Source: Flavobacterium davisii (GTDB lineage: Bacteria; Bacteroidota; Bacteroidia; Flavobacteriales; Flavobacteriaceae). Taken from it: 64,000 nt of DNA. Both the position numbers and the translations under genes were made by a program. The notes under the pieces were generated by a model, which made no database searches, was not told where the DNA came from, and worked only from the letters and a program-made list of their open reading frames with translations. Location: contig NZ_CP067378.1 in NCBI RefSeq assembly GCF_019565505.1, positions 1,178,001-1,242,000 on the forward strand, in the 5' to 3' direction. How positions within the stretch are numbered: position 1 is the stretch's first letter; every line of letters starts with the position of its first letter. This document shows, one piece after another, positions 22,164-26,934 of this stretch.

Positions 22164-22743
22164 AACCACTTCATTGCTTCTTCTACTGAAATTCCACGGC
22201 GTTTCGCATAATCGGCTACTTGGTCTGGTTTTATTTTTCCTAATCCGAAGTATTTACTTTGTGGGTTAGCAAAATAATATCCTGAAACGGAGGAAGCTGG
22301 CCACATTGCCATACTTTCGGTTAGTTTGACTCCTATTTGATTTTCCACGTCTAACAATTTCCAGATAACTGGCTTTTCTAAATGGTCTGGACACGCTGGA
22401 TATCCGGCGCGGGACGTATTCCTTTGTAGCTTTCTTTTATTAATTCTTCGTTGGTTAATTTTTCATCTGAAGCATAACCCCAAATTTCTTTACGCACTTT
22501 TTCGTGTAAATATTCTGCAAAAGCTTCTGCTAAACGGTCGCCTAGTGCTTTTACTAAAATCGAATTGTAATCGTCTAAATTTGTTTCGTATTCTTTTGCT
22601 TTTTCATCCACGCCAAAACCTGTAGTTACACAAAAACAACCTATATAATCTTGTTTACCTGTTTCTTTTGGCGCTATAAAATCGGCTAAAGCGATGTTAG
22701 GAGCACCTGCTGTTTTCACACTCTGTTGACGTAAAGTCAAAAA

Positions 22744-23221
22744 GAGCCCCCCAGCCCCCACACGAGCAGAAGCGAACTGGCGAAGCAAAGGGGGAACGAC
22801 CAACTTTACGGATAAACGTTGTCTAATTTTTTTCAATAGTTTCGAATAAATTGGTTAGAACTTCCTTATTCGTAAATCTAATCACTTCAAATCCTTTCGA
22901 TTCCAACCATTCAGTCCTCAATTTATCGTGTTCTATTTGCTCTTGAAGATTATGAATTGCTCCATCCACTTCAACTATCAAGTTCTTCTCTAAACAAACA
23001 AAATCTACAATATATTGGCCAATGATATGTTGTCTTCTAAACTTAAAGCCATCTATTCCTTTATTAGACAACACTTTCCAAAGTATATTTTCAGCATCAG
23101 TTGGTTGATTACGCATTTCCTTAGCTCTAACTTTTAATTCTTCATAAAGTACTGGATTTGCAGTTTCCCAAAATTGCTTGGACACAACGTTTGGAGTTCC
23201 CCCTTGGGGGCTAGGGGGCTC
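22744..23221 (-). mobile_element. Palindrome-bounded DUF559 element, copy 2 (in metH activation domain)
   Basis: A 478-bp element with 16-bp terminal inverted repeats, GAGCCCCCCAGCCCCC (22744 on, plus) and GAGCCCCCTAGCCCCC (23221 on, minus), one mismatch. Each end can fold into a C5/G5 hairpin; the left one has an enlarged loop. It interrupts metH between NDDDIEV and [11 protein letters not shown]. Restoring one C in the run at 23199-23203 and removing one A at 22829-22836 would make metH, the DUF559 gene and metH again one continuous frame. Confidence 0.8.
22823..23185 (-). CDS. DUF559 (Vsr-like PD-(D/E)XK) endonuclease, copy 2
   Basis: A 120-aa nuclease-like protein starting at GTG 23185 ([15 protein letters not shown]). 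The DUF559 core is seen in order: [39 protein letters not shown], then IVEVDGAIH and [19 protein letters not shown]. The Asp of VDF, the E-V-D of EVDG and the following His match the Vsr/very-short-patch-repair fold catalytic core. It is about 70% identical by eye to copy 1. It reads in the same direction as metH and probably was translated as part of MetH before single-base indels at both ends. Family members are thought to be DNA endonucleases; activity here is inferred. Confidence 0.85.
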
Positions 23222-24030
23222 ACTTCGATATCATCATCATTCACGGTATTAGCAGGAAAAATCCCTAGAATTCCTTTGGCGATAAACCATTTTTCAGAAA
23301 TGATTTTTTCCAACATACTCTGGGCATCCAAAAACAAATTAGAAGCTTGTTCGCCCACTACTTCATCGGTGAGAATGGCTGGATATTTACCATATAATTC
23401 CCACGACTGAAAAAACGGTGTCCAATCGATATAACTTACCAATTCTGACAACGCTACTTCAACTATTTTTGTCCCAATAAAATTTGGTTTTACTGGTTTA
23501 TAAGCATCCCAATCGATTAAGAATTTATTTTTACGTGCTTCTTCAATGGAAAGAAAATTCTTTTCTCTACTTCTATTCAAATAACCTTCGCGCAAGGTAT
23601 TATACTCTTCACGCAATGATTTTGCAAAATCTAACTTTACCTCTTCCTGCAATAAATTAGAAGCAACCGTCACCGCTCTTGACGCATCATTGACGTGTAC
23701 CACGGTCGACTGATATTCAGGTGCAATTTTCACAGCTGTATGTGCACGCGACGTGGTTGCACCACCTATCATTACTGGAATTTTAATATTTAATCTATCT
23801 AATTCTTTGGCTAGATATACCATTTCATCTAAGGAAGGCGTGATTAAACCACTTAATCCTATAATATCTACCTTTTCTTTGACAGCTGTTTCTATAATTT
23901 TTCTGGTGGCACCATTACCCCCAAATCAATTATTTCAAAATTATTACAAGCTAAAACAACTGAAACTATATTTTTCCCTATATCGTGCACATCGCCTTTT
24001 ACGGTTGCCATTAAAATCTTGCCGGACTTG

Positions 24031-24461
24031 CCTGCCCCCGAAGGGGGAGCTACCAACTGTGCGTTCAATTCGTTGCGAATAATTTCGATGGTGTCAAAAA
24101 GATGATTTAAAACTTGGTTGTTTTCAAATCGAATGACTTTGAAACCATTTTTTTCAAGCCATTCTGTTCTTAATTTATCGTGTTCTATCTGTTCTGGCTG
24201 ATTATGTACAGAACCGTCAACTTCAATTACTAATCTTTTTTCTAAACAAACAAAATCGACTATATACTCGCCAATTATATGTTGTCTTCTAAACTTATAT
24301 TCATCAATACCCTTAGCAGAAAGTACATTCCAAAGCATTTTTTCTGCTTCTGTTGGATTATTACGCATTGCTTTTGCACTTTCTTTGAGTTTCGCGTATA
24401 GTGTTGGACTTGCAGTTTTCCACGACTGTTTGTCAACTCCCCCTTCGGGGGTTGGGGGGCT
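24031..24461 (-). mobile_element. Palindrome-bounded DUF559 element, copy 1 (in frame within metH)
   Basis: About 430 bp. The ends share CCCCCGAAGGGGGAG in inverted orientation: at 24035-24049 on the plus strand, and on the minus strand near 24451, where the head CAGCCCCCCAA is also present. Between them metH is open without a break and encodes a full DUF559 domain: [81 protein letters not shown]. The insertion separates the cap domain ([13 protein letters not shown]) from the B12 domain ([16 protein letters not shown]) with palindrome-encoded linkers SPPTPEGGV and LVAPPSGAG. It would be a nuclease domain inside MetH. Confidence 0.85.
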
Positions 24462-24717
24462 GATGTACGGCATTAAATAAGCCACCGCTTTTTTCATTAC
24501 TCGAGCGGACTTTACGACTTGAGGCAAAAACATTTTTCCAGAGCCAAATAAGTCCCCTACTACGTTCATTCCATTCATCAAATGATTTTCTATCACTTCA
24601 ATTGGTCGAGTTACTTGTTGGCGCGCTTCTTCAACATCTATTTCGATAAATTCATCTAATCCTTTTACCAAAGAATGTGTTAACCGTTCCTGGACTGAAC
24701 CATTTCTCCAAACAGCC

Positions 24718-24754
24718 TCTCCCCCAGCCCCTCTCCGAAGGAGAGGGGAGCCGT
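24718..24754. repeat. Small palindrome inserted in frame in metH (cap-domain linker)
   Basis: CTCTCCCCCAGCCCCTCTCC followed by GAAGGAGAGGGGAGCC on the plus strand, a 9-10 bp GC-rich hairpin. In metH it encodes [11 protein letters not shown] between AERIKGNG and [19 protein letters not shown], i.e. between pterin and cap domains, keeping the frame. Confidence 0.75.
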
Positions 24755-25620
24755 TGCCTTTAATACGTTCCGCATACTCTATTAATCTTTCGGTTGCGTC
24801 ATCGCGTCTATCAAGAAGTACATCTTCAACATATTCTAACAATTCCTTGTCAATTTCATCATAAATCTCGAGCATTTCAGGATTTACTATTCCCATCGTC
24901 ATACCGTGATTGATGGCGTGATATAAAAATGCCGAATGCATGGCTTCGCGCACTTTGTCATTTCCTCTAAATGAAAATGAAACATTACTCACCCCACCCG
25001 AAATATTTGCATACGGAAGATTTTCGCGAATCCATTTAGTAGCTAAAAAGAAATCAATTGCATTGCGTCTATGTTCTTCCATTCCTGTAGCCACGGGAAA
25101 GATATTGGGGTCAAAAATGATATCTTCCGCAGGAAAACCTACTTTTTCTACCAAAATATCATAGGAACGCTTACATATTTCAATACGACGTTGATATGTA
25201 TCCGCCTGTCCAACCTCATCAAAAGCCATTACAATTACTGATGCTCCGTAACGTTTGATTAATTTTGCGTGATGGATAAACGTTTCTTCTCCCTCTTTTA
25301 ACGAAATAGAATTCACAACACCTTTACCTTGAATCACCTTAAGACCTGCTTCAATAATTTCCCATTTAGAACTATCTATCATTACGGGAACTCTTGCGAT
25401 ATCAGGTTCAGATGCAATTAAATTAAGGAATTTGGTCATTGCGTATACACCATCCAGCATCCCTTCATCCATATTCACATCAATGATTTGCGCACCACCT
25501 TCAACTTGAGCTCGTGCAATATCTAGTGCTTCATCATATTTTTCTTCTTTTATTAGTCGAAGAAATTTACGAGACCCTGTAACATTAGTACGTTCGCCTA
25601 CATTTATAAATAGCGCTCGA

Positions 25621-25651
25621 CCAGCCTCCCCAACCCCTCCAAAGGAGGGGC
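25621..25651. repeat. Small palindrome inserted in frame in metH (before pterin domain)
   Basis: CAGCCTCCCCAACCCCTCC followed by AAAGGAGGGGCTTAC. In metH it encodes [11 protein letters not shown] directly ahead of [15 protein letters not shown]. Same head-plus-hairpin design as the other units. Confidence 0.75.
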
Positions 25652-25767
25652 TTACTGATGCGTCAACACTAACCGCAGTTTCCTTCACTTTATTATTCAA
25701 CTCCCCTTGATATACTTTAAGTGGTTCAAGACCTGAGAGTGTCAATGCTTTTTTAGGCGGTGCTACA

Positions 25768-25796
25768 ACTCCCCTTTTGGGGGTTAGGGGGGCAAC
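25768..25796. repeat. Small palindrome inserted in frame in metH (interdomain linker)
   Basis: CTCCCCTTTTGGGGGTTAG followed by GGGGGGC on the plus strand. In metH it encodes [12 protein letters not shown] in the linker between the homocysteine and pterin domains; the frame is kept. Confidence 0.7.
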
Positions 25797-26934
25797 TGCT
25801 TCTGCAATTAATCTTATATGTTCTGGAGTTGTTCCACAACAACCACCGATAATATTGACTAAATTTTCTTGCAAATATTCTCTTATGAGTTGTTGCATTT
25901 CCTCTGCGGTTTGGTCGTATTGTCCAAATGCATTAGGCAAACCTGCATTAGGATGTGCAGAGATATTTAATTGTGTATTGTGTGCTAATCTTTTCAGATA
26001 GGGCTTTAACTGGTCGGCTCCTAAAGCACAGTTAAAACCAACACTCAACAATGGAATATGTTGGATTGAAATTAAAAAAGCTTCCACGGTTTGCCCCGAC
26101 AATGTTCTTCCTGAAGCATCTGTAATTGTACCAGAAACCATTACAGGTATATCTAATTTACGTTCTTCCTTTACTTCTTCTATCGCAAACAAGCACGCTT
26201 TAGCATTCAGTGTGTCAAAAATGGTTTCTACTAATAATAAATCGGCACCACCATCAATTAAAGCTTCTACTTGCTGACGATACGCTAATTTTAACTCATC
26301 AAAAGTAACTGCTCTATAACTCCGGGTCATTTACATCGGGCGACATAGACGCTGTTCTATTAGTTGGTCCAATGGAACCCGCAACAAATCTAGGTTTATC
26401 AGTAAACTCATCTGCTACTTCGCGAGCAATTTTAGCCGATTGATAATTAAGTTCATAAACCAAATCTTCCATATGATAATCCGCCATTCCGATGGTAGTT
26501 CCTGAAAACGTATTGGTTTCCACTATATCGGCACCCGCTTGAAAATACAAACGATGCACTTCTTTTACCGCTTCAGGTTGTGTCAGAGACAATAAATCAT
26601 TGTTCCCTTTTAATGGGTGCGGAAAATCTTTAAAGCGTTCGCCTCTAAAATCTTCCTCCTCAAACTTATAACGTTGCAACATCGTTCCCATAGCTCCATC
26701 GAGTACTAGGATACGTTGCTTTAAAATTTCTTGAATGAGCCCACTTGCTCTTGAAGAGGTTGCCCCTTTTTGATTTATATCACTCATTGACATTACATTT
26801 CTTATCATTCAAAACGAATACTATCCGCTTGAAAACTTTATTTTACAAAATGGTTTAAGGAATTGTGCTTCCAAAAAAATTGGAAATTTTACACAAAAAA
26901 ACGTTATCAAAAAGGGGAGCGAAAAACTCAAAAA

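Follow-up and report, generated by a model that had tools for sequence, protein, structure and literature searches.

A DUF559 nuclease bounded by inverted palindromes and resident in frame in methionine synthase and other enzymes of Flavobacterium and related Bacteroidota

How a complete nuclease domain comes to lie inside methionine synthase is the question raised by the metH gene of Flavobacterium davisii. The window, that is, the whole stretch of 64,000 nucleotides that was analysed (contig NZ_CP067378.1, positions 1,178,001 to 1,242,000), had been given a first-pass annotation, in which a segment of about 430 bp with inverted palindromes at its ends was described within metH. That annotation proposed a mobile element that enters interdomain linkers in frame, carries a nuclease that could aid its own spread in the manner of a homing endonuclease, and does so without intein splicing. 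Here we follow the element through its host proteins, its empty sites, its ends and its nuclease, and weigh the explanations for it.

Anatomy of the insert in metH

In MetH the DUF559 nuclease domain of the insert, designated copy 1, occupies an in-frame position between the cap domain and the B12 domain (Table 1). A Pfam scan placed PF04480 (DUF559) between B12-binding_2, which is the cap, and B12-binding with an E value of 5e-35, and PF04480 matches scored 120 and 124.6 bits against a curated cut-off of 20.6. The limits originally given for the segment are correct to within a few bases, and MetH does read straight through it, the main minus-strand ORF being free of stops across the insert. 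Perfect copies of CCCCCGAAGGGGG at 24035-24047 (plus strand) and 24439-24451 (minus strand) belong to a 22-nt inverted repeat with 86% complementarity; with up to two mismatches allowed, CCCCCGAAGGGGG has five matches in the window versus a mean of 0.06 in shuffles. The palindromes code for the linkers, again as had been claimed, with the translations listed in Table 1. In relatives whose MetH is empty, the site is a linker of about 12 aa, which the insert either replaces or enlarges; the insert consists of a nuclease of about 110 aa and linkers only, with no other Pfam domain found there.

Table 1. Features of the element copies and palindromes in metH, in window positions
Feature	Position	Strand	Evidence
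Main metH ORF, 812 aa: end of homocysteine domain, pterin, cap, copy 1, start of B12 domain	23892-26330	-	
Copy 1 gene-proximal terminal palindrome, AGCCCCCCAACCCCCGAAGGGGGAG on minus strand, translated SPPTPEGG	24437-24461	-	
Copy 1 DUF559 (PF04480) nuclease domain	24066-24392	-	Pfam; structure model; fold match
Copy 1 gene-distal terminal palindrome, inverted relative to the other end, translated APPSGAG; outer side unlike relatives	24031-24049	+	
Copy 2 DUF559 domain, in MetH activation domain (Met_synt_B12 profile 78|90)	22829-23137	-	Pfam
Copy 2 gene-proximal palindrome	23197-23221	-	
Copy 2 gene-distal palindrome, about 30 bases between arms	22745-22796	+	read by eye
Lone palindrome without nuclease, in frame in MetH linker; three relatives have a different linker there	24720-24749	+	
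Lone palindrome, in frame in metH	25625-25653	+	
Lone palindrome-like repeat, in frame in metH, translated LTPKRGVVA	25769-25792	+	

A second DUF559 domain, copy 2, lies in the activation domain encoded by the same gene, and a PF04480 family search found no third copy in the 3.4-Mb genome. The metH frame is broken near 26320, near 23900, inside copy 2 and near 22405; the frame of copy 1 is uninterrupted. The flanks of copy 2 share one frame, 477 nt apart, and its DUF559 frame is offset. Since the source genome is a single contig scored as 87% complete, the breaks are likely to be sequencing indel errors, a reading that for copy 2 also follows from the existence of relatives of that copy in frame. 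The bases between the arms of the gene-distal palindrome of copy 2 are perhaps a nested repeat. Elsewhere in the source genome, identical palindromes recur in the same frame context near 1674769, 1682602 and 1690439, at a spacing of about 7.8 kb, and near 2441468 and 2448514, about 7.0 kb apart, which suggests duplicated segments or an assembly repeat. A Y1-transposase-like ORF at 809983-813198 of this genome (L137) has inverted palindromes of its own, unlike those of the DUF559 element.

Host proteins and distribution

After ORFs with a shared DUF559 core sequence had been merged, 180 copies of the element were counted in 176 distinct ORFs, 162 of them at least 300 aa long, in 12 host clusters. 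MetH, LeuRS, IleRS, MetRS, ValRS, RecG, UvrA, adenine deaminase and subunit A of 3-oxoacid CoA-transferase, joined to subunit B, were identified above the NCBIfam cut-off, while an AddA/RecB-like helicase, a LegC-type aminotransferase and a UDP-sugar reductase fell below it. In 12 host families in-frame copies are seen in linkers or loops, which bears out the proposed in-frame entry into linkers. The loci belong mainly to Bacteroidota, with one (L078) labelled Ignavibacterium, and the same arrangement occurs in strains from culture collections: in MetH of F. cucumis DSM 18830, F. croceum DSM 17960 and Winogradskyella sediminis DSM 28134, and in the AddA-like host of F. glaciei DSM 19728. Three loci deserve separate mention. 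A single LeuRS frame (L213) has two DUF559 elements at different sites; in an Emticicia MAG (L045) a single open frame runs from 3-oxoacid CoA-transferase subunit A through the element to subunit B, as if the element had joined two genes; and a contig binned as Candidatus Nitrotoga (L055), probably mis-binned, carries a Flavobacterium-like MetH with the element.

The plain Pfam DUF559 model matched 52 of 150 relatives. A profile made from twelve copies matched 174 of the 398 genomes of the genus Flavobacterium, and 127 of the 150 listed matches lay in open frames of at least 300 aa, a share inflated by the building of the profile mostly from intragenic copies. Plain Pfam DUF559 had matches in 170 of 296 genomes sampled from the phylum; among the 150 matches listed, 43 were in frames of at least 300 aa and 107 in shorter ones, so that DUF559 is often a stand-alone gene there. 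Among named genomes 571 stretches were confirmed, and 76 of the best 80 were in ORFs of at least 300 aa. Other small multi-copy domains did not behave likewise: none of 150 listed copies of PF05635, which is multi-copy in the same genus, and 10 of 150 listed copies of GIY-YIG were in open frames of at least 300 aa. Eight of these ten GIY-YIG frames are 530-627 aa long, a length in keeping with UvrC, and the two longer ones (G056:C14:21450-21668 and G016:C9:3426-3623) have open frames of 701 and 687 aa. Six phage records matched the element, two of them annotated as homing endonuclease protein, as did 49 plasmid records, all at less than 60% identity.

Empty sites in relatives

MetH was examined in 28 Flavobacterium genomes with no DUF559 match (19) or a weak one (9). 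Rather than all relatives being occupied, the cap linker was empty, with about a dozen residues, in 26 of the 26 genomes with MetH; this count leaves out two weak matches, and the one unclassified locus of 27 is a contig fragment from a genome whose other fragment is empty. The closest empty MetH is 92% identical to the MetH of F. cucumis over the matched part. LeuRS gave one match in each of the 24 genomes searched, with open frames of 939-1063 aa, and its junction was read as empty in 21, the remaining three not fitting the junction pattern. The AddA-like helicase had open frames of 1049-1095 aa in 22 of 22 genomes; eight junctions were read as empty, the rest did not fit the pattern, and further empty sites are visible in the protein alignment. 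An ancestral MetH domain was rejected as an explanation because relatives have empty sites. Empty sites are common in MetH, LeuRS and the AddA-like helicase, as expected of the mobile element first proposed: the element is mobile and resides in frame. Occupied and empty alleles were compared between species, and no target-site duplication was seen by eye in these comparisons. In two AddA-like helicases (L270 and L273) the empty linkers hold apparent decayed or half palindromes, possible scars of lost elements.

Terminal palindromes and palindrome-only sites

The palindromes are not peculiar to metH. With two of the 167 intragenic copies excluded for their short flanks, 123 of 165 copies had palindromes running from a C-run to a G-run on both sides and 157 had one on at least one side; for controls from adjacent host DNA the counts were 0 and 1 of 173. 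Exact inverted ends of at least 12 nt, the longest being 37 nt, were present in 53 of the 165 copies, one of the 173 controls and none of 825 shuffles, and inverted ends of at least 10 nt were present in 9 of 13 stand-alone copies. The sequence of the palindromes varies among copies and species.

The activation-domain site of MetH exists in several states. A scripted search within one open frame found 55 distinct junctions without a nuclease-sized insert, of which 50 have no palindrome, two (L126 and L202) have one palindrome, and three (L005, L014 and L178) have an inverted palindrome pair with a short spacer. There are also 13 long junctions, 12 of which carry 155-156 aa; the other, in a Cytophagales MAG (L042), has 241 aa between the anchors and no recognised DUF559 match. 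This site thus presents an allelic series of nothing, one palindrome, a palindrome pair, and palindrome-nuclease-palindrome, the second and third being intermediates. In L126 and in the full element of L034 the left ends code for one and the same peptide, which suggests that L126 is a deletion scar.

A strict palindrome pattern gave 19 rows at 16 distinct places in the source genome versus one for the reversed control, and 14 of the 16, including an end of copy 1, lie inside candidate stop-to-stop frames of at least 233 aa (L229 and L236 lie outside). Across genomes, strict palindromes were present in 79 of 82 with listed intragenic DUF559, 29 of 54 with other profile matches and 35 of 163 without a match. 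These counts ignore phylogeny and genomes with more than one element, and the group of 82 was taken from the 150 listed profile matches, with unlisted ones falling in the middle group. When four palindromes per genome are subtracted for the element's own ends, 48 of the 82 remain (Fisher p 1e-8 against the group without a match).

The LeuRS linker that hosts DUF559 holds another type of palindrome, TCATTGCGAGCGAAGCGAAGCAATC-like, in two Flavobacterium loci (L253 and L257), and a repeat similar to this type is found in L225 where the left end of the element is expected. This linker looks like a general landing place.

Conservation and fold of the nuclease

All 167 intragenic copies have Asp 44, Glu 55 and Asp 57 of the model, and 165 have His 61, the first Asp being partly ascertained since it was contained in one of the two search patterns used to collect the copies. 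Within sites, dN/dS had a median of 0.21 over 688 pairs and was below 1 in 58 of 58 independent pairs; the nuclease is under selection.

The model of the DUF559 domain has a mean pLDDT of 85, and a Foldseek search with this predicted model gave NGO0050 as the nearest solved fold (E value 2e-7), followed at ranks 2 and 3 by I-Bth0305I (6.9e-5 and 9.5e-5, target TM 0.80), then by mitochondrial ribosomal proteins, and then by PvuRts1I, AbaSI and Vsr at E values above 0.001. Sequence searches also rank NGO0050 and I-Bth0305I first, with an E value of 2.7e-6 to I-Bth0305I in the profile hmmsearch. A putative E-D-x-H-D active-site motif would draw on the E, D and later D of all 167 copies and the H of 165, but in the phmmer alignment the D adjoining the E faces an N of I-Bth0305I. 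We infer that the DUF559 domain cuts DNA. In a model of a MetH fragment (pTM 0.46) the palindrome-coded linkers, residues 86-99 and 220-229, have pLDDT below 50, most of the cap and nuclease exceeds 75, and the B12 part scores poorly (53-69).

Insert history compared with host history

In a quick tree built from few columns, inserts cluster by host site (30 changes versus 107.7 when shuffled), with moves from site to site as well: inserts of the two MetH sites, cap and activation, are interleaved in a single clade of 23. Within sites, insert identity is correlated with host identity in five of the six (Spearman 0.34 to 0.81), with no correlation for RecG, which indicates that part of the history is shared and that much of the inheritance may be vertical.

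Synonymous divergence of insert and host was compared in 38 independent same-site pairs, chosen by closest host, after leaving out host dS of at least 1.6, short flanks and two LeuRS_o copies. Insert divergence was below that of the host in eight pairs, above it in nine and not different in 21, at an uncorrected one-sided p<0.05 for which about two pairs each way are expected. Examples are the pair L131/L012 at the MetH activation site, where insert divergence is below host (p 3e-9), and the LeuRS pair L222/L217, where it is above (p 5e-7); in a separate test, Bonferroni correction leaves a single pair out of 2732. In four LeuRS pairs the hosts are 93-95% identical and the inserts only 55-62%. 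Since divergence departs from the host in 17 of the 38 pairs, inserts appear to have been exchanged between species and replaced by foreign lineages, and host-gene recombination could be an alternative source of the eight pairs below host. No clean conversion tract was seen by eye in seven pairwise identity profiles.

Explanations for the element

We favour, with a probability of roughly 60%, a coding mobile element bounded by palindromes that has a homing-like nuclease and no splicing, and that likely spreads by cutting an empty or palindrome-bearing allele. A DUF559 nuclease domain of Vsr/EDxHD-like type, set between two inverted GC-rich palindromes, is inserted in frame in linkers and loops of housekeeping enzymes. 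The palindromes translate as Pro/Gly-rich linkers, so that a single reading frame covers host and nuclease and the latter relies on the expression of the host gene. The nuclease most probably cuts an empty allele or a palindrome-bearing site, whose repair would copy the element in, as for a homing endonuclease, and rare jumps would take the element to new linkers. The first-pass suggestion that the nuclease could aid its own spread finds support in the same-site exchange, the conserved residues and the fold kinship with I-Bth0305I. Weighing against the favoured reading are the lack of a clean conversion tract in the seven profiles, the 21 same-site pairs that keep to host divergence, the correlation of insert with host identity at most sites, an insert without the extra DNA-binding region of known EDxHD homing enzymes, and the many stand-alone DUF559 genes in the phylum. 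We infer the homing step itself, and likewise that cells produce working fused host enzymes.

The main alternative is that the palindromes belong to a REP/MITE-like family and owe their movement to a transposase at another place in the genome, such as a RAYT/Y1 enzyme, with DUF559 as a passenger. Palindromes without a nuclease do occur singly and in pairs, also in frame; palindromes linked to RAYT and palindromes in genes have been published (PMC3733652); and the source genome has one Y1-transposase-like match flanked by inverted palindromes. Those palindromes, however, differ in sequence from the DUF559 ones, in which no GTAG or CGTC tag was seen by eye, and this single Y1 match lies about 390 kb from the metH element; a RAYT mover was rejected on the single match and its other palindromes. 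The selection on the nuclease and the excess of palindromes in genomes with intragenic DUF559 over those without a match (phylogeny ignored) also argue against a passenger, and we regard this explanation as unlikely. It is quite improbable that DUF559 instead serves the cell, in defence or repair, within host enzymes and spreads by ordinary homologous recombination of the host gene. Purifying selection, intact nuclease residues and the clustering of insert trees by host site would all fit such a service, as would the Caulobacter DUF559 protein VsrA, for which PMC12907096 describes DNA-damaging effects, an SOS response in a methyltransferase mutant and a proposed role in mismatch repair; but the hosts are unrelated enzymes with patchy occupancy, and the divergent inserts of near-identical LeuRS pairs look as though interchangeable parasites had replaced one another.

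Inteins likewise reside in frame in essential-type enzymes, and the insert might leave the protein by unrecognised splicing, as an intein lacking the known motifs. No Hint or intein family turned up when MetH and ten fusion proteins were scanned with Pfam, on which ground an intein was rejected and the original claim of no intein splicing supported; the junction residues, moreover, differ among copies, and the linkers of copy 1 are of low confidence in the model, as disorder would be. Splicing is very improbable on this evidence. An assembly artefact or contamination is barely conceivable: indel errors seem to be present in the source genome, and many of the loci come from metagenome bins, but the same arrangement is found in the four DSM strains named above. 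An artefact was accordingly rejected for the element and accepted as likely for the frame breaks in metH.

Beyond the mobile, palindrome-bounded coding element that we prefer, we give about even chances to a wider proposal, that it represents a third lifestyle for a selfish homing nuclease in important genes. Without intron or intein, the nuclease would persist as a permanent, tolerated folded domain in a linker; the palindromes would act both as DNA ends and as protein linkers, and lone or paired palindromes would be deletion scars or non-autonomous offspring. If this is true, inteins and introns are not the sole route for a homing-type nuclease into an important gene, and a folded protein that tolerates its guest can do without splicing. 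The proposal would account for the DUF559 inserts seen in MetH, tRNA synthetases and repair enzymes of Bacteroidota, point to a cargo and an origin for palindromes that code in frame, and provide a natural catalogue of positions at which enzymes take a whole extra domain. It would also serve as a warning that reading such enzymes as plain fusions hides a mobile element. Searches of open-access PMC text, with subscription papers mostly outside its coverage, gave no paper whose title or opening of the abstract describes DUF559 elements inside host proteins.

Comparison with known systems

The element shares features with several known systems. Homing endonucleases borne by introns or inteins are alike in their patchy presence at fixed sites of housekeeping genes and in same-site exchange, whereas no splicing element was found around the DUF559 nuclease, palindromes bound it, and cleavage of the empty allele is putative here. 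With the EDxHD homing endonucleases, represented by I-Bth0305I, it has a related catalytic fold; those enzymes carry a long tethered DNA-binding region, according to a review, and by Pfam the DUF559 insert is without this extra region.

REP sequences are small hairpin repeats, often in inverted pairs, some of them inside uvrA, recB-type and tRNA-synthetase genes (PMC3733652). REPtrons, the REP/RAYT arrangement, resemble the DUF559 element in being a gene flanked by inverted repeats, but the latter has a Vsr-like nuclease and not a Y1 enzyme, its palindromes show no GTAG/CGTC tag by eye, and most of its listed copies in the genus are inside long ORFs. Compared with MITEs, it has exact inverted ends of at least 12 nt in part of its copies (53/165), with no target-site duplication seen by eye.

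The Rickettsia palindromic elements are palindromic repeats of about 150 bp that lie in frame in unrelated protein-coding genes and code for a short conserved peptide, with no nuclease domain reported in the part of PMC10969869 consulted. The two are alike in their in-frame palindromes in unrelated genes and, compared by description, differ in the nuclease domain that the DUF559 element carries. Vsr and the stand-alone DUF559 proteins NGO0050 and VsrA belong to the same domain family and share its conserved residues; they are separate genes, whereas the domain of the element is embedded in the reading frame of another enzyme.
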